From Oscillospiraceae bacterium (GTDB lineage: Bacteria > Bacillota > Clostridia > Oscillospirales > Oscillospiraceae), in NCBI GenBank assembly GCA_017469115.1, contig JAFUGY010000001.1:1-41930 (forward strand): a stretch of 41,930 nt of DNA, read 5' to 3'. A program made the position numbers and the translations under genes. Shown piece after piece: positions 16,284 to 37,530 of this stretch (the stretch's first letter is position 1; the number at the start of each line of letters is the position of its first letter). Under the pieces are notes generated by a model. That model did not search any database. It was not told the DNA's origin and saw only the letters and a program-made list of their open reading frames with translations.

Positions 16284-16284
16284 C

Positions 16285-17028: not shown

Positions 17029-17048
17029 AAAAGAGTGAGGAAATCAAA

Positions 17049-18065: not shown

Positions 18066-18098
18066 GGAGCTGCTCCGAAAAACGAAAGGAGCCCTGCC

Positions 18099-19286: not shown

Positions 19287-19299
19287 GGGAGAATCCGAA

Positions 19300-19785
19300 A
19301 TGGAAGATTTTACGCATTTTAATGAGCAGGGCAGGGCTAAAATGGTTGACGTCGGAGAAAAGCCGGTCTCCAGCCGAACAGCGGTGGCTGCCGGCAGCGT
19401 GCTGGTCAATCGGAATACCTTCGCGCTGATCCGCTCCGGCGGGATGAAAAAAGGCGATGTGCTGACGACTGCCCAGATTGCCGGGATAATGGGGGCAAAG
19501 CGAACCTCGGAAGTAATCCCAATGTGCCATCCGGTGGCCGTCAACGGCATTAACCTTTTTCTGGCCTTGAATGAGGAACACTGCGCGGTTGACATCACAG
19601 CGGAAGTTTCCTGTGACGGGCGCACCGGTGTGGAGATGGAGGCGCTGACGGCTGTCAGCATCGCAGCACTGACGGTTTATGATATGTGCAAAGCAGTGCA
19701 GAAAGATATGACCATTACCGATATCCGTCTGCTTTCCAAAACAGGCGGCGTACACGGAGATTTTGTCAGGGAGGAAGAGCAATGA
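19300..19785 (+). CDS. moaC: Cyclic pyranopterin monophosphate synthase
   Basis: MoaC closes the pyranopterin ring in the first stage of molybdenum cofactor synthesis, acting with the radical SAM enzyme MoaA. The 161-residue product is the usual length and has the family motifs MVDVGEK, AKRTSEVIPMCHPV and DGRTGVEMEALTAVSIAALT. ATG at 19300 has GAGGGAG upstream. Its last bases overlap the start of mogA. moaA itself is not in the window. Confidence 0.97.
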   Translation: MEDFTHFNEQGRAKMVDVGEKPVSSRTAVAAGSVLVNRNTFALIRSGGMKKGDVLTTAQIAGIMGAKRTSEVIPMCHPVAVNGINLFLALNEEHCAVDITAEVSCDGRTGVEMEALTAVSIAALTVYDMCKAVQKDMTITDIRLLSKTGGVHGDFVREEEQ

Positions 19786-20303
19786 AGCATTTTACAGCAG
19801 CGGTGATTACGGTCAGCGACAAGGGTTACCGGGGCGAGCGGGTGGATACCAGCGGGCCGGCTCTGTGTGCCCTGTTGAAGGAACAGGGCTATGAGATTGC
19901 CTATACGTCGATGGTGCCGGATGAAGCGGAGCAGATTCGAGCGGAGCTTCTCAAATGCGCCGATGAGAAAAAGCTCTCGCTTGTTCTCACAACGGGAGGC
20001 ACCGGGTTTTCGACCCGGGATATTACACCCGAGGCGACAAAAGCCGTTCTCGAGCGGGAGACGCCGGGTATTCCGGAGCTGATGCGTGCCGAGAGCATGA
20101 AGATTACACCTCGTGGCTGCCTTTCGAGAAGTGTGGCAGGAATCCGCGGGCGGACCTTAATCATCAACCTGCCGGGGAGCGAAAAAGCCGCGAAGGAAAA
20201 TATCCTTGCGGTGCTCGAGCCGATGGAGCACGGCCTTGAAATGCTTGACACCGAAGGCTCGGCTGATTGTGCGGATTCTCCTGCAAAGGCGGCGGCAAAA
20301 TGA
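19782..20303 (+). CDS. mogA: Molybdopterin adenylyltransferase
   Basis: MogA attaches AMP to molybdopterin before molybdenum insertion. The 173-residue product has the MogA/MoaB motifs ITVSDKGYRGERVDTSGP, TTGGTGFSTRDITPEA and NLPGS. ATG at 19782 overlaps the moaC stop, with GAGGAAG just upstream. A longer in-frame extension lacks family similarity. The last 20 residues are alanine/lysine-rich and variable. The stop overlaps the next ATG. Confidence 0.94.
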   Translation: MKHFTAAVITVSDKGYRGERVDTSGPALCALLKEQGYEIAYTSMVPDEAEQIRAELLKCADEKKLSLVLTTGGTGFSTRDITPEATKAVLERETPGIPELMRAESMKITPRGCLSRSVAGIRGRTLIINLPGSEKAAKENILAVLEPMEHGLEMLDTEGSADCADSPAKAAAK

Positions 20304-22141: not shown

Positions 22142-23644
22142 TCAATCTCTCCTGAACAGATCTCTGGTATAGACTTTTTCTTCCACGTCATCCAGCACAG
22201 CGTCATAACGGTTGGCGAGGATACACCCGCACATTGCCTTAAACTTTTTCAAGTCATTCACAACTTTTGAGCCGAAAAAAGTACTGCCATTCTCCAGCGT
22301 CGGTTCATAAATAACAACAGTTGCCCCTTTGGCCTTAATGCGCTTCATCACGCCCTGAATGGACGACTGGCGAAAGTTATCCGAATTAGCCTTCATCGTC
22401 AGCCGGAAAACCCCGACCACAATTTCCTTCTGCCTTGTCTCCCGCTCTCTGCTGTAGCTCTCACTGCTGCCATATGTCCCGGCAATCTCCAGGACGCGGT
22501 CAGCAATAAAGTCTTTCCTTGTACGGTTGCTCTCTACAATCGCCTGAATCAGATTTTCCGGCACATCCCGATAATTGGCCAGTAACTGCTTGGTGTCCTT
22601 CGGCAGACAGTAGCCGCCGTATCCGAAGGACGGGTTGTTGTAGAAATCTCCTACCCGCGGGTCAAGGCAGACACCACGAATAATCTCCTTCGTGCTTAAT
22701 CCTTTGATCTCAGCATAGGTGTCCAGTTCATTGAAGTAAGATACTCTTAATGCAAGATACGTGTTGGCAAAGAGCTTGACAGCTTCAGCCTCCGTCCATC
22801 CCATAAAGAGCGTCTCAATTTCGGGCTTCAGAGCTCCCTCTTTCAGCAGAGAGACAAACACTTCAGCCTGCGGCCTGCTCTTTTCATCACAGCCGACAAT
22901 AATCCTGCTGGGATAGAGATTGTCATATAACGCCTTGGATTCCCGCAGAAACTCGGGGCTGAAAAGAATGTTGTCCATTCCAAAGGCTGCTCTTACTCTG
23001 TCTGTATAGCCAACAGGGATCGTAGATTTAATAATAATCGTTGGCTTATTCTTTCTCTCCGCCGTGCACTCCTTCACAAGCGCAAGTACATCCTCAACTG
23101 CGGAACAGTCGAAGTAATTGGTTTTTGGGTCATAGTTCGTAGGCACGGCAAGCAAAATAAAATCCGCATTCCGGAAAGCGGCTACTCCGTCAACCGTTGC
23201 AGTCAGTTTCAGCTCTCGTTGCCCAAGCTTCGCCTCAGCCAGGTACTTCTCGATATATTCATCCTGAATCGGTGAATGATATCCATTAATCATCTCCGCT
23301 TTCTCCGGTTTTGTGCAGACAGCCGTCACTTCATGATGCTGCGCCAGTAACACTGCCAAACTCAGCCCAACGTAGCCGACGCCAGCCACGGCAATCTGAT
23401 ATGTTTTCTCAACTGCTTCAGGAGCTTTCTTCTCTTCCAGGAACATCTCCGTCACGTCAAATCCCAGAACTTCGGCCAACGCCTCTATCTGGTCGACGGA
23501 TGGTTTAAAGGTCCGATTCTCCAGGTTTGACAATACCGTCCTGCTCATACCGACAGAATCCGCCAGCTGTGCCTGTGTCATTTTCAGAACTTTCCGCTTT
23601 CCGCGCACCGTCTGTGCCAGCAGCGGAAGAGATAATTTCCGCAT
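22142..23644 (-). CDS. UDP-glucose 6-dehydrogenase with N-terminal Xre-type HTH domain
   Basis: The 500-residue fusion starts with a helix-turn-helix domain (about residues 10-68: [40 protein letters not shown], listed here by its key parts [17 protein letters not shown] and [11 protein letters not shown]). From residue 82 a full nucleotide-sugar dehydrogenase follows: NAD motif GVGYVGLS (88-95), SPEFLRES, and catalytic Cys346 in [10 protein letters not shown]. The enzyme oxidises UDP-glucose to UDP-glucuronate. The reading frame is continuous and the first ATG has TGGAGG upstream, so the fusion looks real. Two copies of GTCAAGAATWATT at the promoter suggest self-regulation. It feeds the epimerase downstream and probably the divergent polysaccharide genes. 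Confidence 0.9.
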
Positions 23645-23711: not shown

Positions 23712-24018
23712 CATAACTATACCGATTTTCCCGAAATTTCCCCACAAATTAAATAGAAAATGTCGTTTAAATCGACGCTTTCACACACTGTCACAAAAGA
23801 GTCAATAAGCGGGAAAAACGCAGTTATCCACTTGAAAAGGCAGCTGTAAGATGGTACAATATTATTGGGTTAGTATACCAGAGCGCGGCGGGAATATCGA
23901 TCATAACCCGACAAAGCCGGAAACGTCGCCTTTTGACGGATCAGGTTTTATCGATGCGGAACAGACAGCAGGGAGTTTCATACAAACAGAACTACGAGAG
24001 GAAACCGGGTTAATAACT
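23712..24018 (+). promoter_or_regulatory. Promoter and leader of the phosphoesterase gene
   Basis: TTGAAA (23832-23837) and TACAAT (23855-23860) are 17 bases apart. Transcription would start near 23868, leaving a leader of about 150 bases before the ATG at 24019. An in-frame ATG at 23851 lies inside this promoter. The leader has no structure that I can assign to a known riboswitch. The 23712-23831 part is A/T-rich with a GTCG/CGAC palindrome (about 23763-23777) and nothing else notable. Confidence 0.5.
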
Positions 24019-24927
24019 ATGACAAGTAAAACCACAACGGAACCGAAGAAGACAGAAAAGAAAAAACACGGAATTCTGAGAGCTTTCCTTCATATTTTGA
24101 CCTTTTTGCTCGCATTGACAATGATCATTGGTACTGCTGTTTTCCTTTATGCACGGTATACGAAAACGCATTATGAAATCAGGTTCTATCAGGAAACATC
24201 CAAAAAAGTCAGTGCCAATATCCGAATCGCGGTCATCTCCGATATTCACAACCGGGAATACGGAGAAAACAATGAAACCCTGATTTCTGATCTTCGTGCC
24301 CTGAAGCCTGATCTTGTCCTATTTCCAGGTGATATGGTGATCCGGGACCAGGATGATTATCAGCCCGTGCTGAATCTTGTGTCTGCATCAGCCGAAATTG
24401 CGCCTTGCTACGGAGTTCTGGGTAATCACGAGAGCGAACGTATCTATTACGATAATGACAAGGATCTGCCCAAGGCGTTTGAAAAAGCAGGGCTGAAGCT
24501 GCTGCGCAATTCGCAGGAAGAGATCCGGATCGGTGAGGATACCGTTCAACTGATTGGGGTGGAAGGTACGGCTTACGGATTTGAAGAATACGGCGGGAGG
24601 GATTTTATGGAGAAAAGGAAGGTCAATCCGTCCGCTTTCTGCATTTTTATGGCCCATATCCCAACCCTTTTCGAGCCGCAGCTGTCCGGATACGATTTTG
24701 ATCTGGGAATTGCCGGACACGTGCACGGCGGAATTGTGGTTCTTCCTTTCATAGGCGGATTGTATACGGATGAAGAAGGTTTTTTCCCAAAATTCACCGC
24801 AGGAAAATATATTATGGACAAGCAGCAAACCCTGATCATCAGTGCGGGGCTCGGTGATTCCAAACCTTTTCCCCCGAGGGTCAACAACACTCCTGAACTG
24901 ATTGTAATCGATATCAACCGATATTGA
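24019..24927 (+). CDS. Membrane-anchored calcineurin-like metallophosphoesterase
   Basis: The 302-residue protein (from this start) has one N-terminal membrane segment (about residues 25-47) and an outward metallophosphoesterase domain of the YkuE/YaeI type. It shows the five metal-site motifs: ISDIHNREYG, FPGDMV, LGNHES, MAHIP and GHVHGG. Relatives act on phosphate esters or lipid A-like substrates, and the target here is unknown. ATG at 24019 is chosen because the extra N-terminal residues from the ATG at 23851 look unlike the family and that ATG sits in a likely promoter. The ribosome site at 24019 is weak, so this is not certain. It leads into the polysaccharide cluster and could act on a lipid-linked intermediate. 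Confidence 0.85.
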   Translation: MTSKTTTEPKKTEKKKHGILRAFLHILTFLLALTMIIGTAVFLYARYTKTHYEIRFYQETSKKVSANIRIAVISDIHNREYGENNETLISDLRALKPDLVLFPGDMVIRDQDDYQPVLNLVSASAEIAPCYGVLGNHESERIYYDNDKDLPKAFEKAGLKLLRNSQEEIRIGEDTVQLIGVEGTAYGFEEYGGRDFMEKRKVNPSAFCIFMAHIPTLFEPQLSGYDFDLGIAGHVHGGIVVLPFIGGLYTDEEGFFPKFTAGKYIMDKQQTLIISAGLGDSKPFPPRVNNTPELIVIDINRY

Positions 24928-25023
24928 GCCGGGTTGCAACTGCCACAAGGAAAGATAAGCGGAGAGAGAAGCTGTGATAATCGTTGAGGGGAGGCTTCAA
25001 AGGCATGAAGGAGAAGAAAGGCA

Positions 25024-26370
25024 ATGAATGAAAATAACAAATTGAGGACAGGTGGAGACATGGGTTCATCCGGCATCCTGGACAAAGGATGGAGCAGCCT
25101 GCGAAATACTTTTGGGGTATTCTGGAAGCGGAGGTTCCTTGTCTTCGTTTTCTTCCTGATTATTTCTCTTGGCTTGTGCGGATTTCAGTATTATAGAAGT
25201 CTTCACACCGCCAGTACCATTTTGTCGCTGGACTATGAGGAGGCTTCGAAAGGCCTGACACCCAACCGAACCCGATTTAACATTTTTGAAATCCGAAGCG
25301 GTGAGGTTATGGAGCGGTTGATTGAATATGCCGGTCTGGAAGGACAGATAACCCCGGATGAGCTGAGCAAATGTGTCAGTGTACGGGCAACGCACGACAA
25401 AAGCATTAACGGCAATGTGAATTATATCAGCACTTCATTTGTTATCAGGTTTACGAATAATGGCGAAGTTGCCGGAAGGACTGCGGAAGGCATGCTTTCA
25501 CTCCTCTGCAAAGCGTATCGTGAATACTTTGTAGAGCACTATGGATTCAACCACTCCATTCTCTCTTTTGATATCAGTGACCTGAAATTCAATGATGAGT
25601 ATCTGATGGCAGTTGACCTGCTGGAGCTCAAATGCAGCCAGCTGGAAAATTATGTGCATCTTCGCAGCCGGGAAAGCAAAAACTATCAGGATCCGGATAC
25701 CGGAATTACTTTTTCAGCTCTGGAACAGCAGGCAAAAAACTATTATGCCTATGACCTTGCCCGGCTGCGTTCTTATATTATTGAAAACGGGATCGCAAGT
25801 GACAGGGCAGAACTGAACAGCGTTCTGGATTATAAAATACGTATGGATCGCCTGATGCACAACAAGCTGATGGCCGCATATGATGAAGACAATAAGGGGA
25901 TCCAGATGTATGACGCGGCCATGAGCGCTGCAGTCATGATTCCCAGCCAAGACCAGACAATGAACTATTATATGGCCAGAACCAAAACCGGGATGGACGA
26001 TATGGCCATTCACGCTGACGGACAACTTGCAGGGGCAGCGGAAAAAATGGAACAGATTGAGTATAACACGTATTTGGCAGAAAAACTGGAAGCAGGCGAT
26101 TCTGACCCGATGAAGACAGAGAAGGCCAACGCCATGATCCAAGAGATGGAAACGTCGCTGAAGAAGCTCGCATCGGATATCCAGACAGTGGACAGTGCAT
26201 ATACGAATACAAAAGCCCGTAATTATATCGGATTCAGCGAGCATGATGAGGGTTTTGCAGATCAGATTGGGCTTGTTTATTCACTTCTTTGTGCGGTGCT
26301 GATTCTTGCTGCAGTGTTCACCTGTGTGTTTCTGCGCATATTTCTTTCAGACAAGGAGAAAGAAGTATGA
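25024..26370 (+). CDS. Wzz-like polysaccharide chain-length/export protein 1
   Basis: The 448-residue protein has a membrane segment near residues 38-58 and another near 415-438, with a long, mostly helical outer domain between. This is the layout of Wzz/polysaccharide co-polymerases. The stretch after the first segment (ASTILSLDYEEASKGLTPN, FEIRSGEVMERLI) resembles the Wzz domain and is repeated in similar form in the next protein. No cytoplasmic kinase domain is attached, and no separate tyrosine kinase gene is seen. Its stop overlaps the next ATG, so the two proteins are probably made together and may form a mixed complex. Confidence 0.75.
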   Translation: MNENNKLRTGGDMGSSGILDKGWSSLRNTFGVFWKRRFLVFVFFLIISLGLCGFQYYRSLHTASTILSLDYEEASKGLTPNRTRFNIFEIRSGEVMERLIEYAGLEGQITPDELSKCVSVRATHDKSINGNVNYISTSFVIRFTNNGEVAGRTAEGMLSLLCKAYREYFVEHYGFNHSILSFDISDLKFNDEYLMAVDLLELKCSQLENYVHLRSRESKNYQDPDTGITFSALEQQAKNYYAYDLARLRSYIIENGIASDRAELNSVLDYKIRMDRLMHNKLMAAYDEDNKGIQMYDAAMSAAVMIPSQDQTMNYYMARTKTGMDDMAIHADGQLAGAAEKMEQIEYNTYLAEKLEAGDSDPMKTEKANAMIQEMETSLKKLASDIQTVDSAYTNTKARNYIGFSEHDEGFADQIGLVYSLLCAVLILAAVFTCVFLRIFLSDKEKEV

Positions 26371-28268
26371 GGAAATTCAGTATTCTGCGTTATCTGGAGC
26401 AATTCAGCCTGTTGATCTTTCTTTTGGCCGTCATTGGTTCTCTGACAGTTTATTTCTACGGAAAATCTCAGCAGCACTATGTTGCTTCGACGGTGATTCA
26501 ATACACCAACGACGGAGCCAAAGAGGGCTATACGCCGGATGGGAGCCCGTTGAAAGTAGAGGAAATCTATTCTTCTACTGTAATTGATGCTGCCCTTACG
26601 GACCTGGGATACCAGTCCAATATCGACTCTATTCGCTCAAACTGTTATGTTGAAGAAGTCATTCCGGAAGCACAGCAGAAGTTGAATGAAGCACTTCTGG
26701 AAATGGGCGAGGATCCATCTTATCTTACGGATACATATCGGGTGTATTACATCGGGGACGAAGATACCGGAGAGGATTATGCCTGGAATGTGCTGGATAC
26801 AATTATCAAAAACTATTATGAATTTTATGCCGAAAAATATGTGGAGGAACAGCTGCAGAACAACGGCGTTTCTGTACTGACCAAGGGAAATTACGATTAT
26901 TTGGAAAGCGCGCAGGTGCTGGAGAATTCCGTTTCGGAAATGCTGGATTATTTATTGGACAAAAGAGCCTCCCACCCGTATTTCCGGTCGGTGGAAACAG
27001 GGTATACCTACGACGATTTGTACCGGATCTACAACCATTTATACAATTACGAGATTCCAAGCCTTTATGCTGCGATCCTGACCGATGCGGAAACAAACGA
27101 CATTGATTTGATGATGAGCCAGCTGACAAAAGACTGTGAGGATATGCAGCTGTATATCGAAAACCGGGAGGAACGTGCCAATTCTCTGAAAACGCTTATC
27201 GACAATTTCAGTAAACGCAGCAAGGAGATGATGGATTATCATTATCACATCTCTTACAACTGGAATAACGGAACGGAATATATCCTGAAGGATGTTCAGA
27301 ACGGAAGCGAAAACAATAATAAAGAAACAACATATGATGGACTCATTCGGGAATATGTGAATCTGAATATTGATATCCATCAAAAAACAATCGAGAAGGA
27401 ACACAAGGAATATCTGCTGTCCGTATTCGAAAACGCTCTCCTTACAGAGGAAGAGAAAACCTTCAGCCCCAAAGAGATCCGGGATAAAATCGATCACTGT
27501 GTAAATCTGGCGACGGAATACTATCAGTATGTAGAAAAAACGGGGCATGAGCTGAATCGTCATTTGAGCGCGAATTATTTGACGATGATCAGCAGCATCA
27601 ACGTTCAGCCGGCTGTGAATATCAAGTTATATGTTGCGATTGCAATAGTGTTGTTTATACTGGTGGGTTGTATCGGAGCAGTATTGTTTGGGAGAGCAAT
27701 TGATTTCATTGACTATTTCCGGTATGTGGACAAAACGGTCCAGCTGCCGAATCGAACCGGTTGCGACGCGTATATCGGCGGATGGGCAGACAGGCTTCTT
27801 GACGATAATTTCTCCTGCCTGGCCTTGAAGATGGAGTCTCTGAGCAGCCTGTCAAGTGAATACGGACGCGCAACCGGTGACGAGGTGCTGAAGGACTTCG
27901 CCATGATCCTCAAGAGCTTCGGCGACTTGTATGGGTTTATAGGGTATAACGGCAGCGGTGTTTTCTACGCTTTCTTCCCAGGCTGTTCACCTGAAAAATT
28001 AGATGTGATTCTGGAGGCAATCGTACGTCAGATCGCGCAATACAACAAATCGAATCCAGAATACAGGATTGACTATACTTATGGAAGAGCCGTTTCGAGC
28101 CAGGATAACGTCTTTGAAATCAGAGAGCTGCTTCGGCTTGCCATGCAAAGAATGCGTTCAGGGAAACCTTTCCTTGCGTCAGAGCATGTTTCCGGCGCAT
28201 CTGGGGCAAAGGATGCGCAGGATCGCAAAGAGATAATGATCGCGGAGATAGCCAGTGACAGACAGTAA
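26367..28268 (+). CDS. Wzz-like protein fused to a degenerate GGDEF domain
   Basis: The 633-residue protein has membrane segments at about 14-32 and 417-440, with a Wzz-like outer region between. After the second segment it has a cytoplasmic domain of about 170 residues that matches the GGDEF fold: VDKTVQLPNRTGCDAYI (usual DxLTxLPNR), YGRATGDEVLKDFAMIL (usual YGHxxGDxxL), then GYNGSGVFYAFFPG where RxGGDEF should be (around residue 528). The catalytic Asp/Glu are replaced, so cyclic-di-GMP synthesis is unlikely; the domain may bind nucleotide or act as a scaffold. The fusion suggests polymer length or export is tuned by a nucleotide signal. It overlaps both neighbours. Confidence 0.85.
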   Translation: MRKFSILRYLEQFSLLIFLLAVIGSLTVYFYGKSQQHYVASTVIQYTNDGAKEGYTPDGSPLKVEEIYSSTVIDAALTDLGYQSNIDSIRSNCYVEEVIPEAQQKLNEALLEMGEDPSYLTDTYRVYYIGDEDTGEDYAWNVLDTIIKNYYEFYAEKYVEEQLQNNGVSVLTKGNYDYLESAQVLENSVSEMLDYLLDKRASHPYFRSVETGYTYDDLYRIYNHLYNYEIPSLYAAILTDAETNDIDLMMSQLTKDCEDMQLYIENREERANSLKTLIDNFSKRSKEMMDYHYHISYNWNNGTEYILKDVQNGSENNNKETTYDGLIREYVNLNIDIHQKTIEKEHKEYLLSVFENALLTEEEKTFSPKEIRDKIDHCVNLATEYYQYVEKTGHELNRHLSANYLTMISSINVQPAVNIKLYVAIAIVLFILVGCIGAVLFGRAIDFIDYFRYVDKTVQLPNRTGCDAYIGGWADRLLDDNFSCLALKMESLSSLSSEYGRATGDEVLKDFAMILKSFGDLYGFIGYNGSGVFYAFFPGCSPEKLDVILEAIVRQIAQYNKSNPEYRIDYTYGRAVSSQDNVFEIRELLRLAMQRMRSGKPFLASEHVSGASGAKDAQDRKEIMIAEIASDRQ

Positions 28269-29634
28269 ATTTCTGAGAATGAATGCGGATAGTGAGAGGT
28301 TGCAAAACTCGAAAAAAGAATGCCCGGCGTTTGTAGCATTTCTTGCTGTTGTCTGCACCGTTCTTGCCGGTCTCGGAGACTGGAAGGTTCTTAATAATGC
28401 TTTCGGAGGTCTGCCTAAAGTCGTCGTGCTTGGGACAATTCTCTGTGCTTTTCTGAACTTTCTTATAGCTGCTGATTTCGTACAGCTCAAAAAGGCAATG
28501 GGCTATTTTCCCGTATTTTTGGTCCTGATAGCAGTTTATTCCCTGGTCACCATGTACATCTGGATCACGGATTTCTCAAAGGTAGCATCCATCAGCAGGG
28601 CAGGGCAGAAGATCCTGTTTCAAACAATCACGATCATTTATGCCGTCTTCATGTGCTATTTATTTGAGGACAGAGCGATCAATTACTTGTTTTTCAGTAT
28701 GTGCGCCACAAATACTGCCATTATGCTTCTGGAAATGCCGAAATATGGGCTCATTGCGAGCATTTCATCCGTTGTGACATGCATTGTTACCTTCGGAGAG
28801 GCAGAAGGGTTTGTGCGCGCATTGGAAATCCATGACATTACATTCCTGTTTGGGCAATTCTGTATCTACTATATGATGTTCGCACCGAAGAGAACGACAT
28901 CGGAAAAGAGGCTACGCCGCTGGGGCATAGTCCTCTCCCTCTTTTTCCTGCTGGTGGGGCTGAAGCGCAGCACTCTGCCGGCTGTACTTCTCGTGTGTAT
29001 ATATGTAAAATTCCTCCGTATAACCGGGAAACCAAGGAAGTTTATTCTGGTGACGGGGATCACACTGTTCCTGTTTTTTTATCTCTATCTCTATTTGACA
29101 CGGTCCGGCATCCTGGTGGCGTTTCTGGAATCGCATGGGATCGACATGATGGGCCGCGACGTGCTGTGGAGCTTGCCCAATGATTACTATGAGCTTTCCC
29201 CGCTCTGGAAAGGGCTGGGCTTTGAAGCAGTAACCGATCTGGTGAACAAATGGTATCACGAAGGCCTCATCAATCGAGCTTATCCGCTGCATAATGATAT
29301 TTTAAAGATCTTTATTGAGCTTGGTGCATTGGGATTTACTCTTTGGGCAGGAATCAATTATATTCTGTATCCTGCTTACTGGATGACGCGGCATGATACG
29401 GATACTGGCATGCTGTATATGGCAATATTGTGCTATATGACGGTGACCTATCTGACAGACAACACTGCGTTTTACTTCTGGAGTTGCATCGGGCTGAGGC
29501 TGATTCCCATGAGTTACAGTTACCGGATCAGCAAAACCGGTAAGCCGATGCAGTGGAAAGCGCCGACGCCAAAGGAACTGGCCGATGAGATCTGGCTTAT
29601 TGAAAGGGGAGGAAAAGTCGGGAATGCGGAATAA
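28255..29634 (+). CDS. Wzy-like polysaccharide polymerase
   Basis: The 459-residue integral membrane protein has about ten hydrophobic segments and a larger outer loop near residues 300-350 (GRDVLWSLPNDYYELSPLWKGLGFE, cited by the parts GRDVLW and WKGLGFE; then LHNDILKIFIELG). The HND...ELG segment is typical of O-antigen ligase/polymerase proteins. It should join repeat units outside the membrane. GTG at 28255 is preferred because GGAG lies 7 bases upstream; an in-frame ATG at 28279 is the alternative. It overlaps the genes on both sides. Confidence 0.8.
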   Translation: MTDSKFLRMNADSERLQNSKKECPAFVAFLAVVCTVLAGLGDWKVLNNAFGGLPKVVVLGTILCAFLNFLIAADFVQLKKAMGYFPVFLVLIAVYSLVTMYIWITDFSKVASISRAGQKILFQTITIIYAVFMCYLFEDRAINYLFFSMCATNTAIMLLEMPKYGLIASISSVVTCIVTFGEAEGFVRALEIHDITFLFGQFCIYYMMFAPKRTTSEKRLRRWGIVLSLFFLLVGLKRSTLPAVLLVCIYVKFLRITGKPRKFILVTGITLFLFFYLYLYLTRSGILVAFLESHGIDMMGRDVLWSLPNDYYELSPLWKGLGFEAVTDLVNKWYHEGLINRAYPLHNDILKIFIELGALGFTLWAGINYILYPAYWMTRHDTDTGMLYMAILCYMTVTYLTDNTAFYFWSCIGLRLIPMSYSYRISKTGKPMQWKAPTPKELADEIWLIERGGKVGNAE

Positions 29635-30811
29635 GCTAAAGCGGATGCCGGTTTATCTGAAAAATGTGTTTCTTCTTCTTGTGCTTTGGCCTGTTGCTGC
29701 AGTCCTCAGAAAAACAAACAAGGCATACCGTCATCTCTGGCTGGTGATGGAACGGGGGTTTGATGCCAGGGATAATGCGTACTGGTTTTTTCGTTACCTA
29801 CGGGAATGTCAGCCCCAGATCAATGCGTGCTATGTGATCGACAAATCAAGCCCGGACTATGGCAGAGTTGCGCAGCTTGGCGAGACTGTTGCGTGGAGAT
29901 CAATTCGGCACTATCTGATGTATCTGGCAGCTGACATGCTGATCAGCACCCATTTACAGCCCGGGGCCCCCGATCTTATGGCTTATTATCATCTGCGTCA
30001 AATTGGGATTCATCCAAGAGGACGGGAGATTTTTCTACAGCATGGGATTATCAAGGACGAAATGCAATGGATGAGGTATCCCAACCTGAAGGTCGATTTC
30101 TTTGCCAGCGGCGGAAAAATGGAATATGATTACCTTGTTTCGGAATTTGGATTTCCGGAAGGAGTTATTCAGTATACAGGATTATGCCGTTTTGATAATC
30201 TTATCCGGAGAAACAATCCTTCCAATGAGATCCTTGTAATGCCGACGTGGCGTGGCTGGAAATATCCCCAGGGGGAGCACTTTTACGAGACGGCTTTTTA
30301 TCGGCAGTTTCAGTCCATGTTGGAGAATCCTCGCCTGCTCAGCCTCCTTGAGGAGTATGATCTCAAACTGATTTTTTATCCTCACATTGAACTGCAAAAA
30401 GAGCTGGATAAGTTCAGATCACCGTCGGAGCGAATTATTCTTGCAAGCTGGCGGGATTACGATGTTCAGAGCCTGCTGATGCGCTGCAACCTGCTGATAA
30501 CGGATTATTCCAGCGTGTTTTTTGATGTCGGGTATATGGAAAAACCGGTGATCTATTACCAATTTGATGTGGAGGAGTTCCTGAAATACCATTATCAGAA
30601 AGGCTATTTCTCCTATGAGAAACACGGTTTCGGCCCTGTTGTCAAAACAGAGGAAGCACTGGTGAACGCCGTATATGATTGTGTTGGGAACGATTTCCAA
30701 ATGCAGAAGAAGTATCAAGACCGTCTGGAGGCTTTTTACCCGGTTCGGGATGAACTGAACTGCGAGCGCACTTATCAGATTCTCCGCCGAATGGGAAGAG
30801 AAAATGGGTGA
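29624..30811 (+). CDS. TagB/TagF-like CDP-glycerol glycerophosphotransferase family protein
   Basis: The 395-residue protein matches the CDP-glycerol:poly(glycerophosphate) glycerophosphotransferase family: FLQHGIIKD, MPTWRGWKYP, FYPHIELQ and the C-terminal LLITDYSSVFFDVGYMEKP. Members transfer glycerol- or ribitol-phosphate to teichoic acids or polysaccharides. An N-terminal hydrophobic stretch (about 10-28) suggests membrane contact. ATG at 29624 is chosen because GGGGAGG lies about 11 bases upstream, while an earlier ATG at 29585 has none. The cluster may therefore make a polymer with phosphoglycerol substituents; no tagD-like gene is seen nearby. Confidence 0.88.
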   Translation: MRNKLKRMPVYLKNVFLLLVLWPVAAVLRKTNKAYRHLWLVMERGFDARDNAYWFFRYLRECQPQINACYVIDKSSPDYGRVAQLGETVAWRSIRHYLMYLAADMLISTHLQPGAPDLMAYYHLRQIGIHPRGREIFLQHGIIKDEMQWMRYPNLKVDFFASGGKMEYDYLVSEFGFPEGVIQYTGLCRFDNLIRRNNPSNEILVMPTWRGWKYPQGEHFYETAFYRQFQSMLENPRLLSLLEEYDLKLIFYPHIELQKELDKFRSPSERIILASWRDYDVQSLLMRCNLLITDYSSVFFDVGYMEKPVIYYQFDVEEFLKYHYQKGYFSYEKHGFGPVVKTEEALVNAVYDCVGNDFQMQKKYQDRLEAFYPVRDELNCERTYQILRRMGRENG

Positions 30812-30889
30812 AACACAGAGGCAGAAGAATCATCTCGTGTCCGTGATACAGCACCGTGATCAAAAGAGAAACAGGAGGAATTGAAAAAG

Positions 30890-32026
30890 ATGCTTCGTGT
30901 GCTGCATTCCGTCAGCAATATGGCGCGTGCAGGAATCGAAACCATGCTGATGAACTATTACCGGGAGATTGACCGGAGCCGGATCCAGTTTGACTTTCTG
31001 GCGAACAAACCGGTGCCGGGGGAATATGACGAGGAGATACGCAGCATGGGAGGACGGGTTTTTGTCAGCCCGGGCCTCAATCCGTTGTATTATCCCCGAT
31101 ACAGGCAGTATATGGCAAATCTGCTGCATGACAATCCTGATATCAAAATTATCCATGCCCATAACGAGGCGATGGGATATTATGCTCTCCAGAGTGCCAA
31201 AAACGCCGGGATTAAGGTTCGGATCGCGCATGCACATAACACGCAAATCATTCGGGATTACAAGTATCCCCTGAAGCTGATTTGCAAGCAACTTCTTCCT
31301 GGCGCAGCAACAGATTATTGGAGCTGCGGTAGGGATGCGGGAATTTACTATTACGGAGAAGAGCGGTGGAATGCGTCCGGCTTTATCATGCGAAACGCAA
31401 TAGATGTGTCAAAATTTGCATTCCGGCCGGAAGTCCGCGAGAGATTACGGCAGGACTATGGTTTGGGAAATTGTTTTGTAGTCGGCCATGTAGGCAGGTT
31501 TAATATGCAGAAAAATCACAGCCGTCTGCTGGATGTTTTTTCGGAAATCGTAACTGCCGTTCCCAATAGCCGCCTTGTTCTGATTGGCGTGGGTGAGCTG
31601 GAGCAGGTCGTGAAAGAAAAAGCCCAGTCCATGGGGATTCAGGATAAGACGCTCTTCCTGGGGCAGATGGCTGACGTCAGCGAATGGTATCAGGGGATGG
31701 ATTGCTTCGTGATGCCTTCGCTGTTTGAGGGGCTTCCGGTGGTTGGTATCGAGGCACAGGCAGCCGGATTACAATGCTTCTTCTCTGACCGGGTCACGGA
31801 TGAGATTTTACTTTCGCCGGGAGCGCGCAGAATACCCCTCCAGGCGGAGAATGCGGAATGGGCCAGAGAGATTATAACAGCAAGGCAGTCAGAAACAGAT
31901 CGGACTTTGGGGATGAGCATTGTCCGTGAGGCCGGGTATGATATTTACGAGGAAGCGCGTAAACTGCAGGAGATCTATCTGGAGATGGCAGACCATGCAT
32001 ATTTTGGGTCACATCGATTGGCTTGA
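30890..32026 (+). CDS. GT4-family glycosyltransferase
   Basis: The 378-residue GT-B-fold glycosyltransferase resembles EpsF-like enzymes. Visible parts are VLHSVSNMARAGIETMLMNYYR at the N-terminus (key part ARAGIETM), HAHNEAMGYYAL, HVGRFNMQKNH and the C-terminal PSLFEGLPVVGIEAQAAG, which holds the donor-binding E-x7-E element. It adds one sugar to the lipid-linked repeat unit; the sugar cannot be told. ATG at 30890 has AGGAGG at an 11-base spacing, whereas a TTG at 30881 is too close to it. Confidence 0.9.
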   Translation: MLRVLHSVSNMARAGIETMLMNYYREIDRSRIQFDFLANKPVPGEYDEEIRSMGGRVFVSPGLNPLYYPRYRQYMANLLHDNPDIKIIHAHNEAMGYYALQSAKNAGIKVRIAHAHNTQIIRDYKYPLKLICKQLLPGAATDYWSCGRDAGIYYYGEERWNASGFIMRNAIDVSKFAFRPEVRERLRQDYGLGNCFVVGHVGRFNMQKNHSRLLDVFSEIVTAVPNSRLVLIGVGELEQVVKEKAQSMGIQDKTLFLGQMADVSEWYQGMDCFVMPSLFEGLPVVGIEAQAAGLQCFFSDRVTDEILLSPGARRIPLQAENAEWAREIITARQSETDRTLGMSIVREAGYDIYEEARKLQEIYLEMADHAYFGSHRLA

Positions 32027-32075
32027 TGGGCGGAAGTCGGACGGATTGATTGCCCATCTATTATGAAAGGACGGA

Positions 32076-33227
32076 ATGAAACGAATGCAGAAAACGTCAA
32101 AACGGATCGCGATGATTGGACATAAATTCATTCCTTCCAGAGACGGGGGGGTTGAAGTCGTTGTCAGCAACCTGGCACCGCATCTCGCGGAGATCGGTTA
32201 TGATGTGACCTGCTATAACCGGACAAACAAACAATTCAAAAAGCTACGAAAAAACGGGACCATGATGAGAGAATACAGAGGCGTTCGCCTGATCTGGGCA
32301 CCGACTGTGGATCGACGGGGATTGGCGGCAATGACTTCTTCAATTTTTGCGACAGTGATGGCCACCTTCAGCCCTTTTGATTTGGTACACTTCCATACGG
32401 AGGGTCCATGCGTCCTTTGCTGGCTCCCGAGACTGTTTGGCAAAAAGGTGGTTGTAACGGTTCACGGGCTTGATCATATGCGCCAAAAATGGGGGAAGCT
32501 CGCTTCTGCATATATCATGCGAGGTGAAAAGGCAGCTGTCCGCCATGCCAACAGCATCATTGTGCTGAGCAAGGGTGTCCAGGCTTATTTTCTTGAGAAA
32601 TATGGACGAGAAACAGTGCTGATCCCAAACGGAATTGATCCGGCTGAAAGTAGGCCTGCCTGCGAGATCACAAAGCAGTTTGGCCTTGTCTCACGGGAAT
32701 ATATCCTGTTTCTGGGGCGGCTGGTGCCGGAGAAGGGGATTCATTACCTCATCGAAGCCTATCAGATGCTCCGTTCGGACAAGAAATTGGTGATCGTCGG
32801 CGGGACATCGGACACAGATGATTATGTGCGGCAGCTGCATGCCATGGCCGGAGATACCTCCTCTATCATTTTTACCGGTTTTCAAGAAGGAATTATTGCG
32901 GAGGAATTATACAGCAACGCATACCTGTATGTGCTGCCCAGCGACCTTGAGGGAATGCCGCTTTCTTTGCTGGAGGCGATGAATTACGGATGCTGCTGCG
33001 TGACATCCGATATCGAAGAGTGCGCCGCTGTAATGGGTGGCTGCGGCTTCACCTTTCCTCAAGGAAATGTGGAAGCCCTGCGAGAAACGCTTCAGGATCT
33101 ATGTGATCATCCCGACAAAGCGGAGGAAAAACGCAGCGAAGCGCGAAGGATGGTTTCATCGAAGTACACATGGCAGGAAATTACGGCACAGACTGACGAG
33201 CTATACAGCAAGTTGCTGGGAGATTGA
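32076..33227 (+). CDS. GT4-family glycosyltransferase
   Basis: The 383-residue GT-B enzyme has the glycine-rich N-terminal loop (PSRDGGVEVVVSNLA), HFHTEGP, VVTVHGLDHMRQKWG, ILFLGRLVPEKGIHYLI and PSDLEGMPLSLLEAMNYG with the E-x7-E element. It is a retaining-type transferase acting on the growing repeat unit. AAAGGACGG lies just before the ATG. The gene follows the previous GT4 by 49 bases. Confidence 0.9.
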   Translation: MKRMQKTSKRIAMIGHKFIPSRDGGVEVVVSNLAPHLAEIGYDVTCYNRTNKQFKKLRKNGTMMREYRGVRLIWAPTVDRRGLAAMTSSIFATVMATFSPFDLVHFHTEGPCVLCWLPRLFGKKVVVTVHGLDHMRQKWGKLASAYIMRGEKAAVRHANSIIVLSKGVQAYFLEKYGRETVLIPNGIDPAESRPACEITKQFGLVSREYILFLGRLVPEKGIHYLIEAYQMLRSDKKLVIVGGTSDTDDYVRQLHAMAGDTSSIIFTGFQEGIIAEELYSNAYLYVLPSDLEGMPLSLLEAMNYGCCCVTSDIEECAAVMGGCGFTFPQGNVEALRETLQDLCDHPDKAEEKRSEARRMVSSKYTWQEITAQTDELYSKLLGD

Positions 33228-33302
33228 GCTTGAGCGTCAATTGAGTGATATCCTGTGAGATAACCTTCAAAATACAACCGGGAAAGGATTACAGCAAACG
33301 GT

Positions 33303-34856
33303 ATGAAGCTTGAGCGGACCAAAAACGCGGCAAGGAACATTGTGTTTGACGGGACACTGGAAATGGTTAATATGCTTTTTCCATTCGTTATCCGCTCAGT
33401 TATGCTGCATTGTCTCGGCACTGAATATCTGGGGCTAAACGGTTTATTTAAATCCCTCCTGACATTTTTAAATCTGGCAGAGCTCGGGGTGGGTAGCGCC
33501 ATGGTTTTCAGCATGTACAAGCCGATTGCTGAGGATGATACTCCTACTATTTGTGCGCTGCTGCGCTTGTATCGTACCCTTTACAGAATCATCGGGCTGA
33601 CGGTTGCAGCAGTAGGATTGCTTTTGATGCCTGTTCTGCGCAACCTCATCAAGGGTGACCTTCCTGTCAGCATGAACCTGTACATCCTGTACCTGATGAA
33701 TCTTGGAAATACAGTGATGACGTATTGGCTGTTTGCCTATAAAAGCAGCCTGCTGCAGGCACATCAGCGCCGAGATGTAATCAGCAAGGTCAACCTGGCT
33801 GTACGGTTGACGGAATATGTCCTGAAAATTCTGATTCTTGTCTATACGAGAAATTATTATCTCTATCTGTCAGTTCAGCTGCTATGCCAGCTTGCTGTAA
33901 ACCTGCTGACGGCAGTGTGTGCAACGAAAATGTATCCCCAATATGTACCCGAAGGGAAGTTGCCTAAGGAAAAAACACTGGATATCTTTCGAAGGGTACG
34001 GGATCTGTTCACCTCCAAGCTTTCTGCTACGGTTTTCGATGCCGCAGATACGCTGGTCATTTCTGCCTTCATGGGGCTGACTGTTCTGGCACTTTATCAG
34101 AATTATTATTTTATCATTACTGCGCTGCGTATGATGTTGGTTGTGGTTCTCAACGCCTGTATGGCCGGGGTAGGCAATAAGCTGGTCATGGAGAGCAAAG
34201 AAGCGAATTACCGGGATCTTGAAAAAATCAGCCTTCTTTTCCTCTGGGTGCTGGGTGTGAGCAGTTCCATGCTGCTATGTATGTATCAGCCGTTTATACA
34301 GGTCTGGATGGGCGAGAACAATATGCTTGCCATCGGGTTGGTATTTTGCTTTGTCGTCTATTACTATTCCATGGGCGCCAACAAACTGATCAATATGTTT
34401 AAGGACGCAGCGGGCATCTGGCGGAGAGATCGTTGGAGACCGTTGACCGCGGCTCTTGCCAATTTGAGCCTGAATCTGGCAACTGTACGATGGTTGGGGC
34501 TGTATGGAGTGCTGCTCTCGTCTGTTTTCTCCATCATCTTTATTCAGATCCCCTGGTTGTTCCACAATCTGTTTCAGGAAGTATTTCCCCGTCAATATAT
34601 GGGAAGATATATACGGCTCTTCTCCTCTCTGACGGCGGTAGCTTTGATCTCCTGCGGGGCATCATGGTTTGTTTGCAGCCTGTTGACGTTGAATGTGTGG
34701 GCTTCTCTCATATTAAATGCAGCAGTGAGTTTTCTGGTGCCGAATCTGTGCTACTATGCCGTTTATAGGCGAAATCCTGTGTTCAAGGATAGCCTTTTAC
34801 AATTAAAGCGGATTCTCTTACCCAGTGGCAAAACAACGCAGAGTTCGAATATATAA
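33303..34856 (+). CDS. Wzx-like polysaccharide flippase
   Basis: The 517-residue membrane protein has about 12-14 hydrophobic segments and belongs to the MOP/polysaccharide-synthesis flippase group. The N-terminal LGTEYLGLNGLFKSLLTFLNLAELG (key parts GTEYLGLNGLF and LNLAELG) is very typical of Gram-positive members. It should move the lipid-linked repeat unit to the outer face of the membrane, where the Wzy-like protein polymerises it. A weak AAAGGA lies upstream of the ATG. Confidence 0.92.
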   Translation: MKLERTKNAARNIVFDGTLEMVNMLFPFVIRSVMLHCLGTEYLGLNGLFKSLLTFLNLAELGVGSAMVFSMYKPIAEDDTPTICALLRLYRTLYRIIGLTVAAVGLLLMPVLRNLIKGDLPVSMNLYILYLMNLGNTVMTYWLFAYKSSLLQAHQRRDVISKVNLAVRLTEYVLKILILVYTRNYYLYLSVQLLCQLAVNLLTAVCATKMYPQYVPEGKLPKEKTLDIFRRVRDLFTSKLSATVFDAADTLVISAFMGLTVLALYQNYYFIITALRMMLVVVLNACMAGVGNKLVMESKEANYRDLEKISLLFLWVLGVSSSMLLCMYQPFIQVWMGENNMLAIGLVFCFVVYYYSMGANKLINMFKDAAGIWRRDRWRPLTAALANLSLNLATVRWLGLYGVLLSSVFSIIFIQIPWLFHNLFQEVFPRQYMGRYIRLFSSLTAVALISCGASWFVCSLLTLNVWASLILNAAVSFLVPNLCYYAVYRRNPVFKDSLLQLKRILLPSGKTTQSSNI

Positions 34857-34959
34857 AGGATATCAACTCCGGAATCGCCTGAAAAATACGTCGAAAAATC
34901 TGCTTTTTTATGTGGATTTTTGAGATGGTACTGCCGAGCAATGAAAGGGGAATAAAAGA

Positions 34960-35997
34960 ATGATCAGCGTAATCGTGCCAGTTTACAAGGTGGAAAAATA
35001 TCTGAGACACTGTGTGGACAGTATCCTTGCTCAAACCTATACTGATTTTGAACTTCTGCTCATCGACGATGGTTCACCGGATCAGTGTCCGCAGATCTGT
35101 GATGATTACGCCAGTCGTGATCCGCGTGTGCGAGTGATACACAAACCCAATGGTGGATTGATTTCTGCCCGGAATGAAGGAATACGTGCCGCCATGGGAA
35201 GTTATGTCTGCATTTTGGACGGGGATGACTGGGCTCTTGAAAACATGCTGCAATTCATTCATGATACTGTTTCACAATCGCCGGAGCCGCTCGATATGGT
35301 GCTTTTCGCAGCCCACAATGTATTCGAAGATCATCTGGAAGAAACCGTCAATAATGTTCCGGAAGGATATTACGATAAGACTCGCCTGGAAAAAGAAATT
35401 TTTCCGTTTTTGCTTACGGATACGAGAAATGGGCTTCAGGTAGGCGTTATTCAGGCACATACCTGGGATAAGGCATTTAAGAGGGAATTGCTGGCCGAGC
35501 ATTATACACGTGATGAGAGAATCCGTGTTTTTACCGATGTACCTATGACCTACGAATGCCTTTTGCATTGCAGCAATGTATACATCTGTAATGAGCATTT
35601 GTATATGTATAATAAAACCAACGAAGACTCTATACGTGCCAGAAGCCGGGAGAATCTTCTTATAAAGAGTTTCTGTTATCTGGTTCAGTATATGCGGGAA
35701 CATCTGAGCAACCTGGGGCCGTCGATTGACCGTCAGCTCAACGAATACGCAGCTATGTTGATTATTCGCACAGGAAAGTGGCGCGCTGAGACAGATTCTT
35801 CTTTGCAGGAAGCTGCGCTGCATATGAAGGAAGGACTCATGGAATCAAATATGCTGTCGCTCGTGTCTGTAAAAGGCCTGCCTCGAAAGGTGGGAGCTGT
35901 TATATGGCTGCTTAAAATGCGCCTTTATTTACCGGCTGTGCTTCTGTGTGCTGCCAGGGTCAGACAACAGGAAAAGCAAAACAGGCAGCAGGGATAA
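34960..35997 (+). CDS. GT2-family glycosyltransferase
   Basis: The 345-residue GT-A enzyme has an N-terminal GT2 domain: ISVIVPVYKVEKYLRHCVDSI, LLIDDGSPD, PNGGLISARNEGI and the metal-binding DGDDW. The C-terminal part (about 230-345) is less conserved. It probably adds one of the repeat-unit sugars. AAAGGGGA precedes the ATG. The 100-base gap before it has a short A/T-rich hairpin (AAAAATCTGC near 34895) but no clear promoter. Confidence 0.92.
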   Translation: MISVIVPVYKVEKYLRHCVDSILAQTYTDFELLLIDDGSPDQCPQICDDYASRDPRVRVIHKPNGGLISARNEGIRAAMGSYVCILDGDDWALENMLQFIHDTVSQSPEPLDMVLFAAHNVFEDHLEETVNNVPEGYYDKTRLEKEIFPFLLTDTRNGLQVGVIQAHTWDKAFKRELLAEHYTRDERIRVFTDVPMTYECLLHCSNVYICNEHLYMYNKTNEDSIRARSRENLLIKSFCYLVQYMREHLSNLGPSIDRQLNEYAAMLIIRTGKWRAETDSSLQEAALHMKEGLMESNMLSLVSVKGLPRKVGAVIWLLKMRLYLPAVLLCAARVRQQEKQNRQQG

Positions 35998-36039
35998 TCC
36001 TTTGCGGATTTCCGCAAATTATGGAAAGCAGGTGTAAAA

Positions 36040-37530
36040 ATGTATAAACGAAGATTACGCGGCTGGTCCCAGCATATTGATTTTATGCTTCTGGACAATC
36101 TTTGTGTGTTTGCCAGCCTTCTGGTTGCGTTCTTGATCGTTGAAAAAGAAGGGGTGTTGAGCTCTCTATTTTTCTGGAGAATGGTTTTGGAAACCACCCT
36201 GGTGAATCTGTTTGTCATGATTGTTATGGACACTTATCACAGTGTGCTGCATCATACGCCCTGGGATGAGATGATCCGGCTTCTTGTCCAAACGGGATAT
36301 TTGGTTCTGATCCTTCTGGTTTTCCGGTTACTGAACCAGACAGCCGAAACTGATTTATCGAAAATTGTGCGCTATGCTGTGCCGCTATACCTCCTGTCCT
36401 GTTATATTGTACGCCAGACATATAAAAGCTTTCTGAAGAAAAAACATCACATACTCAACCGTCATTCCTTGCTTATTGCACTGGAAGCTTCTCAGATTCC
36501 CACGGTCATTCCTCGAATTCTCCGTACCAATTACGGGGACTACCGGTTCACCGGCCTTGCAATCATGGGAACCGACCCTTCCGAAGAGGAGGCACGTCAG
36601 GCTCTCCGACTGCTCTGGGATCAATATCCGGAGGTTGAAACAATCCCCATCGTAGCAACATCTGATACACTGGAACAATACTTGACCAATAACTGGGTGG
36701 ATGAAGTGTATTTGGATGTACCTCCAAAAGCGGATCTTCCCGTGGAGCTAATCAATAACCTCATGTGTATGGGGATCACCATCCATACTGCTCTAACAAA
36801 TCTGGACGATATCGAATCCAGGCATAAAAACGTGGAATGGATCTGCGGTCATTTGACCATTACGACCTCCTTGGGATATATCACCGGCCGTGATGTTTTC
36901 CTAAAGCGGCTTATGGATATCATGGGCGGATTGGTCGGATCCTTGATCACCGTGATTCTCACTCCTCCTGTGGGACTTGCCATCTGGCTGTCCGACCCGG
37001 GTCCAATCTTTTTCAAGCAGACTCGAATCGGTCAAAACGGGAAAAAATTTCAGATGTACAAGTTCCGCAGCATGTACATGGATGCGGAAGCACGCAAGAA
37101 GCAGGTTGCGCAAAAAAGCGGCCAGGAAGATCAACTCATGTTCAAACTGGAACATGACCCTCGAATTATCGGACAAAAGGAGCTTCCAGACGGAAGATGG
37201 AAAAAGGGTGTCGGCGGATGGATCCGCGATCTGTCTTTGGATGAGTTTCCGCAGTTTTTCAATGTCCTGAAGGGAGATATGTCTCTGGTTGGTACCCGTC
37301 CGCCGACTGTGGATGAATGGGAACGATACGAACCTTTCCACCGCGCAAGAATGTCAACACGGCCGGGAATCACCGGCCTATGGCAAGTCAGCGGTCGCAG
37401 CAAGATTCGTGATTTTGACACAGTGGTTCGCCTGGACCGGGAATACATCGAAAACTGGTCCCTCAAACAGGATATTCATATCTTATTCAAAACCGTATGG
37501 GTTGTGCTTACCCGGAAAGGGGCCATGTAA
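36040..37530 (+). CDS. Undecaprenyl-phosphate sugar phosphotransferase (initiating transferase)
   Basis: The 496-residue protein starts polysaccharide synthesis by moving a sugar-phosphate to undecaprenyl phosphate. It has four or five N-terminal membrane segments, a central CoA_binding_3-like region, and the C-terminal bacterial sugar transferase domain: KRLMDI, GPIFFKQTRIGQNGK, FRSMYMDAE, LDEFPQFFNVLKGDMSLVG, RPGITGLWQVSGR and DREYIENWSL. This WbaP/exopolysaccharide polyprenyl glycosylphosphotransferase layout is complete. It is the last gene of the cluster, although it acts first. Confidence 0.95.
   Translation: MYKRRLRGWSQHIDFMLLDNLCVFASLLVAFLIVEKEGVLSSLFFWRMVLETTLVNLFVMIVMDTYHSVLHHTPWDEMIRLLVQTGYLVLILLVFRLLNQTAETDLSKIVRYAVPLYLLSCYIVRQTYKSFLKKKHHILNRHSLLIALEASQIPTVIPRILRTNYGDYRFTGLAIMGTDPSEEEARQALRLLWDQYPEVETIPIVATSDTLEQYLTNNWVDEVYLDVPPKADLPVELINNLMCMGITIHTALTNLDDIESRHKNVEWICGHLTITTSLGYITGRDVFLKRLMDIMGGLVGSLITVILTPPVGLAIWLSDPGPIFFKQTRIGQNGKKFQMYKFRSMYMDAEARKKQVAQKSGQEDQLMFKLEHDPRIIGQKELPDGRWKKGVGGWIRDLSLDEFPQFFNVLKGDMSLVGTRPPTVDEWERYEPFHRARMSTRPGITGLWQVSGRSKIRDFDTVVRLDREYIENWSLKQDIHILFKTVWVVLTRKGAM

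Follow-up and report, generated by a model that had tools for sequence, protein, structure and literature searches.

As described so far, polysaccharide co-polymerases of the PCP-2 type are controlled by tyrosine kinases or pseudokinases, and for EcpK and HfsB a dead pseudokinase has been proposed to act as a scaffold of the co-polymerase (PMC12004946). In Bacillus subtilis, the degenerate GGDEF domain of YdaK (ydaJKLMN) binds the cyclase DgcK in an exopolysaccharide (EPS) system (PMC7064775), and in another EPS system the receptor is PelD, whose degenerate GGDEF domain binds cyclic di-GMP (c-di-GMP) via an RxxD site (PMC8461298). In alginate synthesis the co-polymerase Alg44 binds c-di-GMP (PMC4443731), and in NfrB-DgcJ of E. 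coli a dedicated cyclase serves one EPS machine by contact (PMC8669469). Here we describe protein B, a Wzz-type co-polymerase with a degenerate GGDEF domain (pseudo-GGDEF) at its C-terminus, encoded in a 41,930-nucleotide stretch of the genome of an Oscillospiraceae gut bacterium (hereafter the window; contig JAFUGY010000001.1 of GenBank assembly GCA_017469115.1, positions 1 to 41,930). We put at about even the chance that this tail is a docking and assembly module which replaces the kinase and links polysaccharide polymerisation to the c-di-GMP machinery. Full-text searches of the open-access literature turned up no paper with a Wzz-GGDEF or Wzz-EAL protein in its title or abstract; in the available parts of PMC4971617, PMC11340318, PMC4443731 and PMC3584217, GGDEF proteins and Wzz or Wzc appear as separate proteins.

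Architecture of protein B

Gene B is an open reading frame (ORF) of 633 codons on the forward strand, running from an ATG at 26367 to a stop at 28268, and its start overlaps the stop of the upstream gene A as ATGA. Two hydrophobic segments predict two membrane helices that would flank an ectodomain of about 390 residues, and the hydropathy maxima, over residues 13-31 and 423-441, place the GGDEF-fold domain, which begins about 12 residues past the second helix, directly after the second membrane segment, where the original prediction had located it. The features of B are:

26367..28268, forward strand: B, Wzz-type co-polymerase with C-terminal pseudo-GGDEF domain (PF00990, PF02706 matches in the family, profile-profile comparison)
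26403..26459, forward strand: membrane segment 1, residues 13-31 (hydropathy)
26460..27632, forward strand: Wzz-type domain, residues 32-422, predicted to be extracytoplasmic (profile comparison)
27633..27689, forward strand: membrane segment 2, residues 423-441 (hydropathy)
27723..28166, forward strand: pseudo-GGDEF domain, residues 453-600 (PF00990)
27924..27935, forward strand: position of the RxxD I-site, reading DLYG, residues 520-523 (alignment)
27948..27965, forward strand: degenerate signature NGSGVF, residues 528-533 (sequence, alignment)

A search with a five-row alignment of close relatives, using patterns from the N-terminal part, yielded 61 named related loci, among them three Faecalibacterium strains (40-41% identity), a Monoglobus metagenome-assembled genome (MAG) and numerous MAGs of rumen Clostridia. 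In 58 of these 61, a single ORF holds both the Wzz part and a tail longer than 120 residues, where an ORF had to include the tail to be called full. The three exceptions are L167 and L191, which end at a contig edge, and L190, in which the frame is interrupted and the tail is a separate ORF. As 58 loci carry the unbroken full ORF, we consider it very unlikely that the fusion is an assembly artefact.

A GGDEF fold without its known sites

Profile searches support the GGDEF fold that had been proposed from the window alone. Pfam GGDEF (PF00990, cut-off 23.8 bits) scores 41.9 bits over residues 453-600 and 45.1 bits against the tail by itself; this profile matches all 32 GGDEF tails, window included, and the profile-profile comparison of 32 B tails with 24 canonical GGDEF domains gave a probability of 99.6 and an E-value of 1.4e-24. 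However, two results speak against the assignment, namely that NCBIfam TIGR00254 falls below its cut-off on B (16.2 versus 37.4 bits) and that in single-sequence searches B matches solved GGDEF structures only weakly, with E 0.037 at best.

The LPNR (460-463) and GDEVL (504-508) motifs are kept and the GGDEF signature has become NGSGVF (528-533), exactly as first noted; the additional loss of the allosteric RxxD site, which reads DLYG at 520-523, had been missed. We aligned B tails with the 24 canonical controls and removed doubles, leaving 76 distinct tails (58 from named records, 17 from other genomes and that of the window); clustering at 95% identity left 73, with the same result. The controls had been chosen by the GG[DE]EF pattern, so that their intact signature is by construction. 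The GG[DE]EF active site of an active diguanylate cyclase is absent from the window (GSGVF) and from every other one of the 76 tails, as is the RxxD c-di-GMP site of degenerate receptors such as PelD and YdaK, and the fourth position of the signature is never acidic. Other positions are strongly conserved: the Asp of the D..T motif, the Asn of the NR motif and the final Phe of the signature in 76/76, the Arg of NR in 75/76, and the Gly-Asp pair in 72/76 and 73/76, respectively.

We take three further tail positions to correspond to D327, N335 and D344 of PleD, and N335 to be one of the two guanine-contact positions. The first of these is Asp in 23/76 and Lys in 25/76 tails (Lys in the window), the second Asn in 57/76 and Ser in 16/76 (Ser in the window), and the third keeps its Asp in 73/76; the metal-binding Asp is gone in 53/76. 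Judging from its GSGVF signature the window domain is catalytically dead, as had been predicted. The presence of the fold would suit a cyclase that stayed active with a new signature and another dinucleotide product, but with that fourth position non-acidic in every tail and the metal-binding residue so often lost, this is scarcely credible and we rejected it.

The same positions bear on a second alternative, in which a remodelled pocket would bind c-di-GMP, GTP or another guanine nucleotide and change the co-polymerase directly. The widely kept Asp at D344 and the prevalence of Asn at N335 would fit such a receptor, subject to the PleD numbering assumed above, and PelD is a precedent in an EPS system (PMC8461298). 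On the other hand, RxxD is missing from all 76 tails, the metal-binding Asp from most of them, and in the window itself Ser stands for N335 and Lys for D327. We regard a direct receptor as unlikely in general, yet direct sensing may be possible in subclades that keep both N335 and D344.

Wzz identity and the paralogue A

Although B itself has no match to Pfam Wzz (PF02706), its proposed Wzz-like nature is borne out by its family. PF02706 is over the cut-off in two B-family members, one with a GGDEF tail (G745, 28.2 bits) and one without a tail (G426, 29.1 bits), and below it in nine further B-family proteins from a scan of 35 genomes; a 17-row B-family profile matched 26 classical Wzz proteins with a probability of 95.4 and an E-value of 1.8e-8. 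The two hydrophobic segments agree with the two-helix layout of a Wzz co-polymerase, the topology again being a prediction, and the gene company of such proteins (Wzy, Wzx and an initiating transferase) is present, with the Wzy_C match barely 0.2 bits above its cut-off.

The gene directly upstream encodes a second protein of this kind:

25024..26370, forward strand: A, Wzz-like paralogue of B, 448 amino acids, two membrane segments, no cytoplasmic domain (hydropathy, hhalign)

A and B are 22% identical over part of their length, and hhalign of six A proteins against the B profile gave an E-value of 4.5e-41 across 410 columns. We suggest that A and B may form a two-protein Wzz-type co-polymerase for the Wzx/Wzy cluster at 23851-37530. 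An A-type Wzz-like part was also seen at L115 (9139-11556, genome G606), behind an N-terminus labelled by eye as glycosyltransferase-like, in an ORF of 806 amino acids.

Selection on the tail

The pseudo-GGDEF tail is under constraint resembling that of the ectodomain. In the five listed pairs that include the window, the tail has a ratio of nonsynonymous to synonymous substitution rates (dN/dS) of 0.15-0.18, against 0.10-0.21 for the ectodomain; the corresponding values of three Faecalibacterium pairs are 0.12-0.15 and 0.08-0.15. Across all 40 listed pairs the tail ranges from 0.08 to 0.37, bar two distant-group pairs at 0.58 and 0.66. Between the window and its nearest relative, L196, the tail does evolve faster (dN 0.122 versus 0.065; dN/dS 0.17 versus 0.10), which, together with the lost signature, might be expected of a functionless relic of a fused cyclase in the course of decay. 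However, the tail values of the five window pairs lie within the ectodomain range, and a tail is found at each of the 58 named loci whose full ORF is unbroken, a class that requires it. We therefore rejected the relic, on the constrained tail dN/dS, as highly improbable.

Distribution and three kinds of tail

A survey of Wzz-GGDEF fusions and their neighbours had been suggested along with the original prediction, and it shows that the fusion recurs in Clostridia, with c-di-GMP genes at many of the loci. A protein search matched 60 of 394 genomes of the order, many of them through GGDEF alone. With a profile of the Wzz part, 61 of 391 genomes of the class matched, 50 of which (own genome included, manual count) scored above 200 bits. 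Eight of 249 genomes of the phylum matched, including the own genome; the other seven reached at most 117 bits, with open frames of at most 548 amino acids, which as they stand are too short for both parts.

Among 64 related loci the tail is a pseudo-GGDEF domain in 31 and an EAL domain in 13, while B is tail-less in the remaining 20. The tail of G319 was missed by the local cyclase profile and is counted as GGDEF because PF00990 matches it; PF00563 matches 13/13 EAL tails. Four cases were left out of these counts and of the tree: G225 (551 amino acids, distant, no GGDEF tail seen), G029 (contig end), G116 (a near copy of G047) and G475. In an unrooted tree built by a quick method from 65 rows of the Wzz part, with several long branches flagged, the GGDEF-tail rows fall on one side of a branch with support 99 and the EAL-tail rows on one side of another (99), with the tail-less rows between. 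On this unrooted tree, where gain and loss of tails look alike, two separate fusions would be the simplest reading.

The EAL tails are degenerate to different degrees. The second Asp of the DD motif is lost in 12/13, and of 15 positions checked G444 keeps 14, G628 13 and G098 11, whereas the other ten lost several. The near-complete G444 tail adds to the case for a directly binding pocket, and sensing may be possible in such near-intact EAL tails; the general loss of the second Asp, and of several positions in ten tails, counts against it.

Some related proteins depart from this scheme. B proteins at L099 (8166-10817) and L160 extend beyond the pseudo-GGDEF domain (884 and 845 amino acids), with low-complexity sequence in L099. 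At L006 (1324-2046, G001), a lone ORF of 241 amino acids combines a hydrophobic N-terminal part with a degenerate GGDEF domain (NGGNKF) that is 29% identical to the window tail, and it stands before an ORF labelled by eye as sigma-factor-like.

c-di-GMP genes and riboswitches near B

The flanks examined around the loci are of unequal length, and the linkage counts below come from related, non-independent genomes. One subclade, represented by G469, comprises 19 GGDEF-tail loci, and at 18 of them a protein of about 460 amino acids with an EAL domain is encoded 5.6-5.7 kb downstream of B on the same strand; at the nineteenth (G468) the contig ends before this position. In this protein EAL reads EVL and every other checked position is canonical. 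At 10 of the 19 loci the strand of B also encodes an intact cyclase of about 770 amino acids (RMGGDEF) at a distance of 8-10 kb, upstream in seven and downstream in three. Eight of the nine loci without it were covered for less than 9 kb upstream, and the ninth, G088, has 20 kb upstream with none there; G039, G070 and G144 have 18-20 kb of downstream sequence without the cyclase. In G469 a same-strand run of ORFs begins with the cyclase and also includes flippase-like and initiating-transferase-like genes, the phosphoesterase, A, B, Wzy, glycosyltransferases and the EAL protein, and the linked cyclase and B are the only two GGDEF matches of that genome. EPS runs that start with an intact membrane cyclase and include an EAL protein with its catalytic residues were observed at this locus (L087/L259, G469) and its relatives.

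Close relatives of the linked cyclase occur in 22 of 391 class genomes (E up to 1e-160, 38-79% identity, manual count), and three more have a full-length relative at 28-29% identity. Thirteen of the 22 are among the 50 genomes with B, and nine of these thirteen have both on one contig. Outside the 19-locus subclade, just four of the 13 GGDEF-tail loci (the window being one of the 13) have a further GGDEF or EAL gene in the flanks examined, namely G361, G394, G519 and G727, as do 6/13 EAL-tail and 5/20 tail-less loci.

The c-di-GMP-I riboswitch scores above the Rfam gathering threshold at 7/13 EAL-tail loci. At six of the seven (L114, L116, L118, L119, L121 and L124) it lies 2.3-2.6 kb before A. 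Gene order was drawn for five of the loci: at L118, L119 and L121 the riboswitch is directly 5' of glycosyltransferase-like and initiating-transferase-like genes, followed by A and B; at L114 it is directly 5' of an unlabelled ORF and a glycosyltransferase-like gene; and at L109 it is downstream of B. Two of the 15 tail-less loci searched (of 20) have one. Among genomes with GGDEF tails, 8/33 have any such riboswitch, part of the first-look candidates having been scored, and in G070, G477 and G529 it shares a contig with B, no more than about 13 kb away. Overall, c-di-GMP-I riboswitches in EPS loci with Wzz-like A/B pairs were observed at L114 (3734-3825), L116, L118, L119, L121, L124, L109, L107, L115 and L264.

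For the own genome, no c-di-GMP-I riboswitch was found among the 94 of 249 first-look candidates scored, there is no PilZ match, and the one EAL match is in a protein on contig C85 that also carries a canonical GGDEF domain. The idea of nucleotide-based control, put forward for the window at the outset, thus stands in part: intact cyclases, intact EAL phosphodiesterases or c-di-GMP riboswitches at relatives' loci lend it circumstantial support, but the window domain as a direct sensor is not supported, given its lost active and RxxD sites, its Ser at N335 and the lack of any c-di-GMP gene or Rfam match at the locus. The live enzymes and sensors beside B in relatives suggest an undescribed tie of sugar-polymer production to c-di-GMP. 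This linkage would also suit the directly binding pocket discussed above.

A further alternative is a pure assembly domain, in which the tail merely stabilises the co-polymerase oligomer in the manner proposed for the EcpK/HfsB pseudokinases and no c-di-GMP link is left in the window lineage. The window subfamily, in which all known ligand sites are lost under persisting purifying selection, is what such a domain predicts, as are the lack of a c-di-GMP gene in the window cluster and the 20/64 loci where B has no tail at all. However, a neutral scaffold does not explain why both tail groups of the tree carry c-di-GMP-type domains, nor why many relatives' loci hold c-di-GMP genes, and we think it improbable, if worth keeping in mind.

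Gene cluster around A and B

Besides A and B, the cluster consists of:

23851..24927, forward strand: calcineurin-like phosphoesterase, a frequent neighbour of A/B (PF00149)
28255..29634, forward strand: Wzy-type polymerase/O-antigen ligase family protein, overlapping the end of B (PF04932, 31.9 bits, cut-off 31.7)
29585..30811, forward strand: CDP-glycerol-type glycerophosphotransferase family protein (PF04464)
30881..32026, forward strand: glycosyltransferase, group 1 (family match)
32076..33227, forward strand: glycosyltransferase, group 1 (family match)
33303..34856, forward strand: Wzx-type flippase (PF01943)
34960..35997, forward strand: glycosyltransferase family 2 (family match)
36040..37530, forward strand: initiating sugar-phosphate transferase, Bac_transf (PF02397)

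The calcineurin-like phosphoesterase is within about 1.5 kb of B at 29/31 GGDEF-tail loci and directly after B at 10/13 EAL-tail loci. A search with TIGR01007 found no tyrosine kinase on the window contig; in the own genome, which is 89% complete, it was over its cut-off once, on contig C58, adjoining a classical Wzz. BLAST with one kinase sequence found no tyrosine kinase near the 64 related loci within their flanks of unequal length. By these searches the fused or adjacent tyrosine kinase or pseudokinase of PCP-2 was found neither in the window cluster nor near these loci, consistent with the proposal that the GGDEF domain occupies the usual place of the kinase.

Next to the EPS cluster, on the reverse strand (22142-23644), a single ORF combines an N-terminal helix-turn-helix (PF01381 at residues 17-66) with a UDP-glucose/GDP-mannose dehydrogenase (from residue 83), i.e. 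a regulator-enzyme fusion. The region before the cluster (2279-20303) holds genes related to molybdenum enzymes (XdhC, MobA-like, MoCF), as well as radical SAM, solute-binding and ABC transporter genes.

A proposed docking module in place of a kinase

Pairing between GGDEF domains is known, so the tail of B could pair with its own copies inside the co-polymerase ring and also with an active cyclase or with the GGDEF-like portion of a phosphodiesterase. In the docking and assembly reading, which we favour, the pseudo-GGDEF domain would hang on helix 2 where PCP-2 co-polymerases carry their tyrosine kinase. With both known c-di-GMP/GTP sites lost, the domain of the window lineage would make no c-di-GMP by known chemistry; rather, the state of the c-di-GMP machinery would be passed via helix 2 to the extracytoplasmic polymerisation complex, and may thereby affect chain length or export. 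Both kinds of fused domain derive from c-di-GMP proteins and have mostly lost their ligand residues, so it is more probable that a surface was kept than a pocket, and it is this that leads us to docking and assembly. In its favour we also count the constraint on the tail, the placement of GGDEF and EAL rows on the tree, the lack of a kinase match nearby and the c-di-GMP genes of relatives, and as precedents the contact of YdaK with its cyclase (PMC7064775) and the proposed scaffold role of EcpK (PMC12004946).

Several observations weigh against this reading. The docking of YdaK needs an intact RxxD site (PMC7064775), which B does not have. B is unmatched in nine of the 22 genomes that encode a close relative of the linked cyclase. 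Outside the 19-locus subclade, 9/13 GGDEF-tail loci, window included, have no other GGDEF or EAL gene in the flanks examined. At the window locus nothing but B matched GGDEF, nothing matched EAL, and neither a riboswitch nor any other Rfam match was found.

In a broader form, which we hold slightly more tentatively, gut Clostridia would have a separate class of co-polymerases in which control by a tyrosine kinase has been replaced by pseudo-GGDEF or EAL modules fused independently onto one Wzz-like adaptor. The EPS loci concerned can include a cyclase, a phosphodiesterase and a c-di-GMP riboswitch of their own, and second-messenger proteins would set chain length or export by direct contact. 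If true, Wzx/Wzy polysaccharides of gut and rumen bacteria, including Faecalibacterium, would be under c-di-GMP-type control at the co-polymerase itself. Two kinds of fusion on one adaptor would also offer a clean test of why dead GGDEF and EAL domains persist, with live cyclases and phosphodiesterases adjoining the dead-domain fusions in some lineages and not in others.

Comparison with known systems

Alg44 belongs to a synthase-dependent system and has a PilZ domain and, unlike B, is not known to have a GGDEF domain. It is already a precedent for a c-di-GMP link at a co-polymerase (PMC4443731). NfrB differs from B in that it has a MshEN domain on a glycosyltransferase and no Wzz part (PMC8669469). 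Closer to B is YdaK, likewise a membrane protein with a degenerate GGDEF domain from a Gram-positive EPS operon (PMC7064775; PMC5422440). However, YdaK keeps RxxD and is not described in the available parts of these sources as a Wzz protein, whereas B lacks RxxD and has its domain within the co-polymerase.

PelD and BcsE are not known to belong to a Wzx/Wzy system, and PelD binds c-di-GMP through RxxD, which B lacks. What B shares with both is a degenerate GGDEF domain inside a polysaccharide machine (PMC8461298). The overall plan of B is that of PCP-2 (Wzc; CapA/CapB; EpsV-EcpK and HfsA-HfsB), with two helices around a Wzz-type domain, a Wzx/Wzy cluster and a cytoplasmic module, and the likeness to EcpK and HfsB goes further, as their cytoplasmic module is dead too (PMC12004946). 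B is set apart from PCP-2 by the module itself, which in its family is a GGDEF (or EAL) domain and not a kinase fold, and by the presence of two co-polymerase paralogues, A and B.

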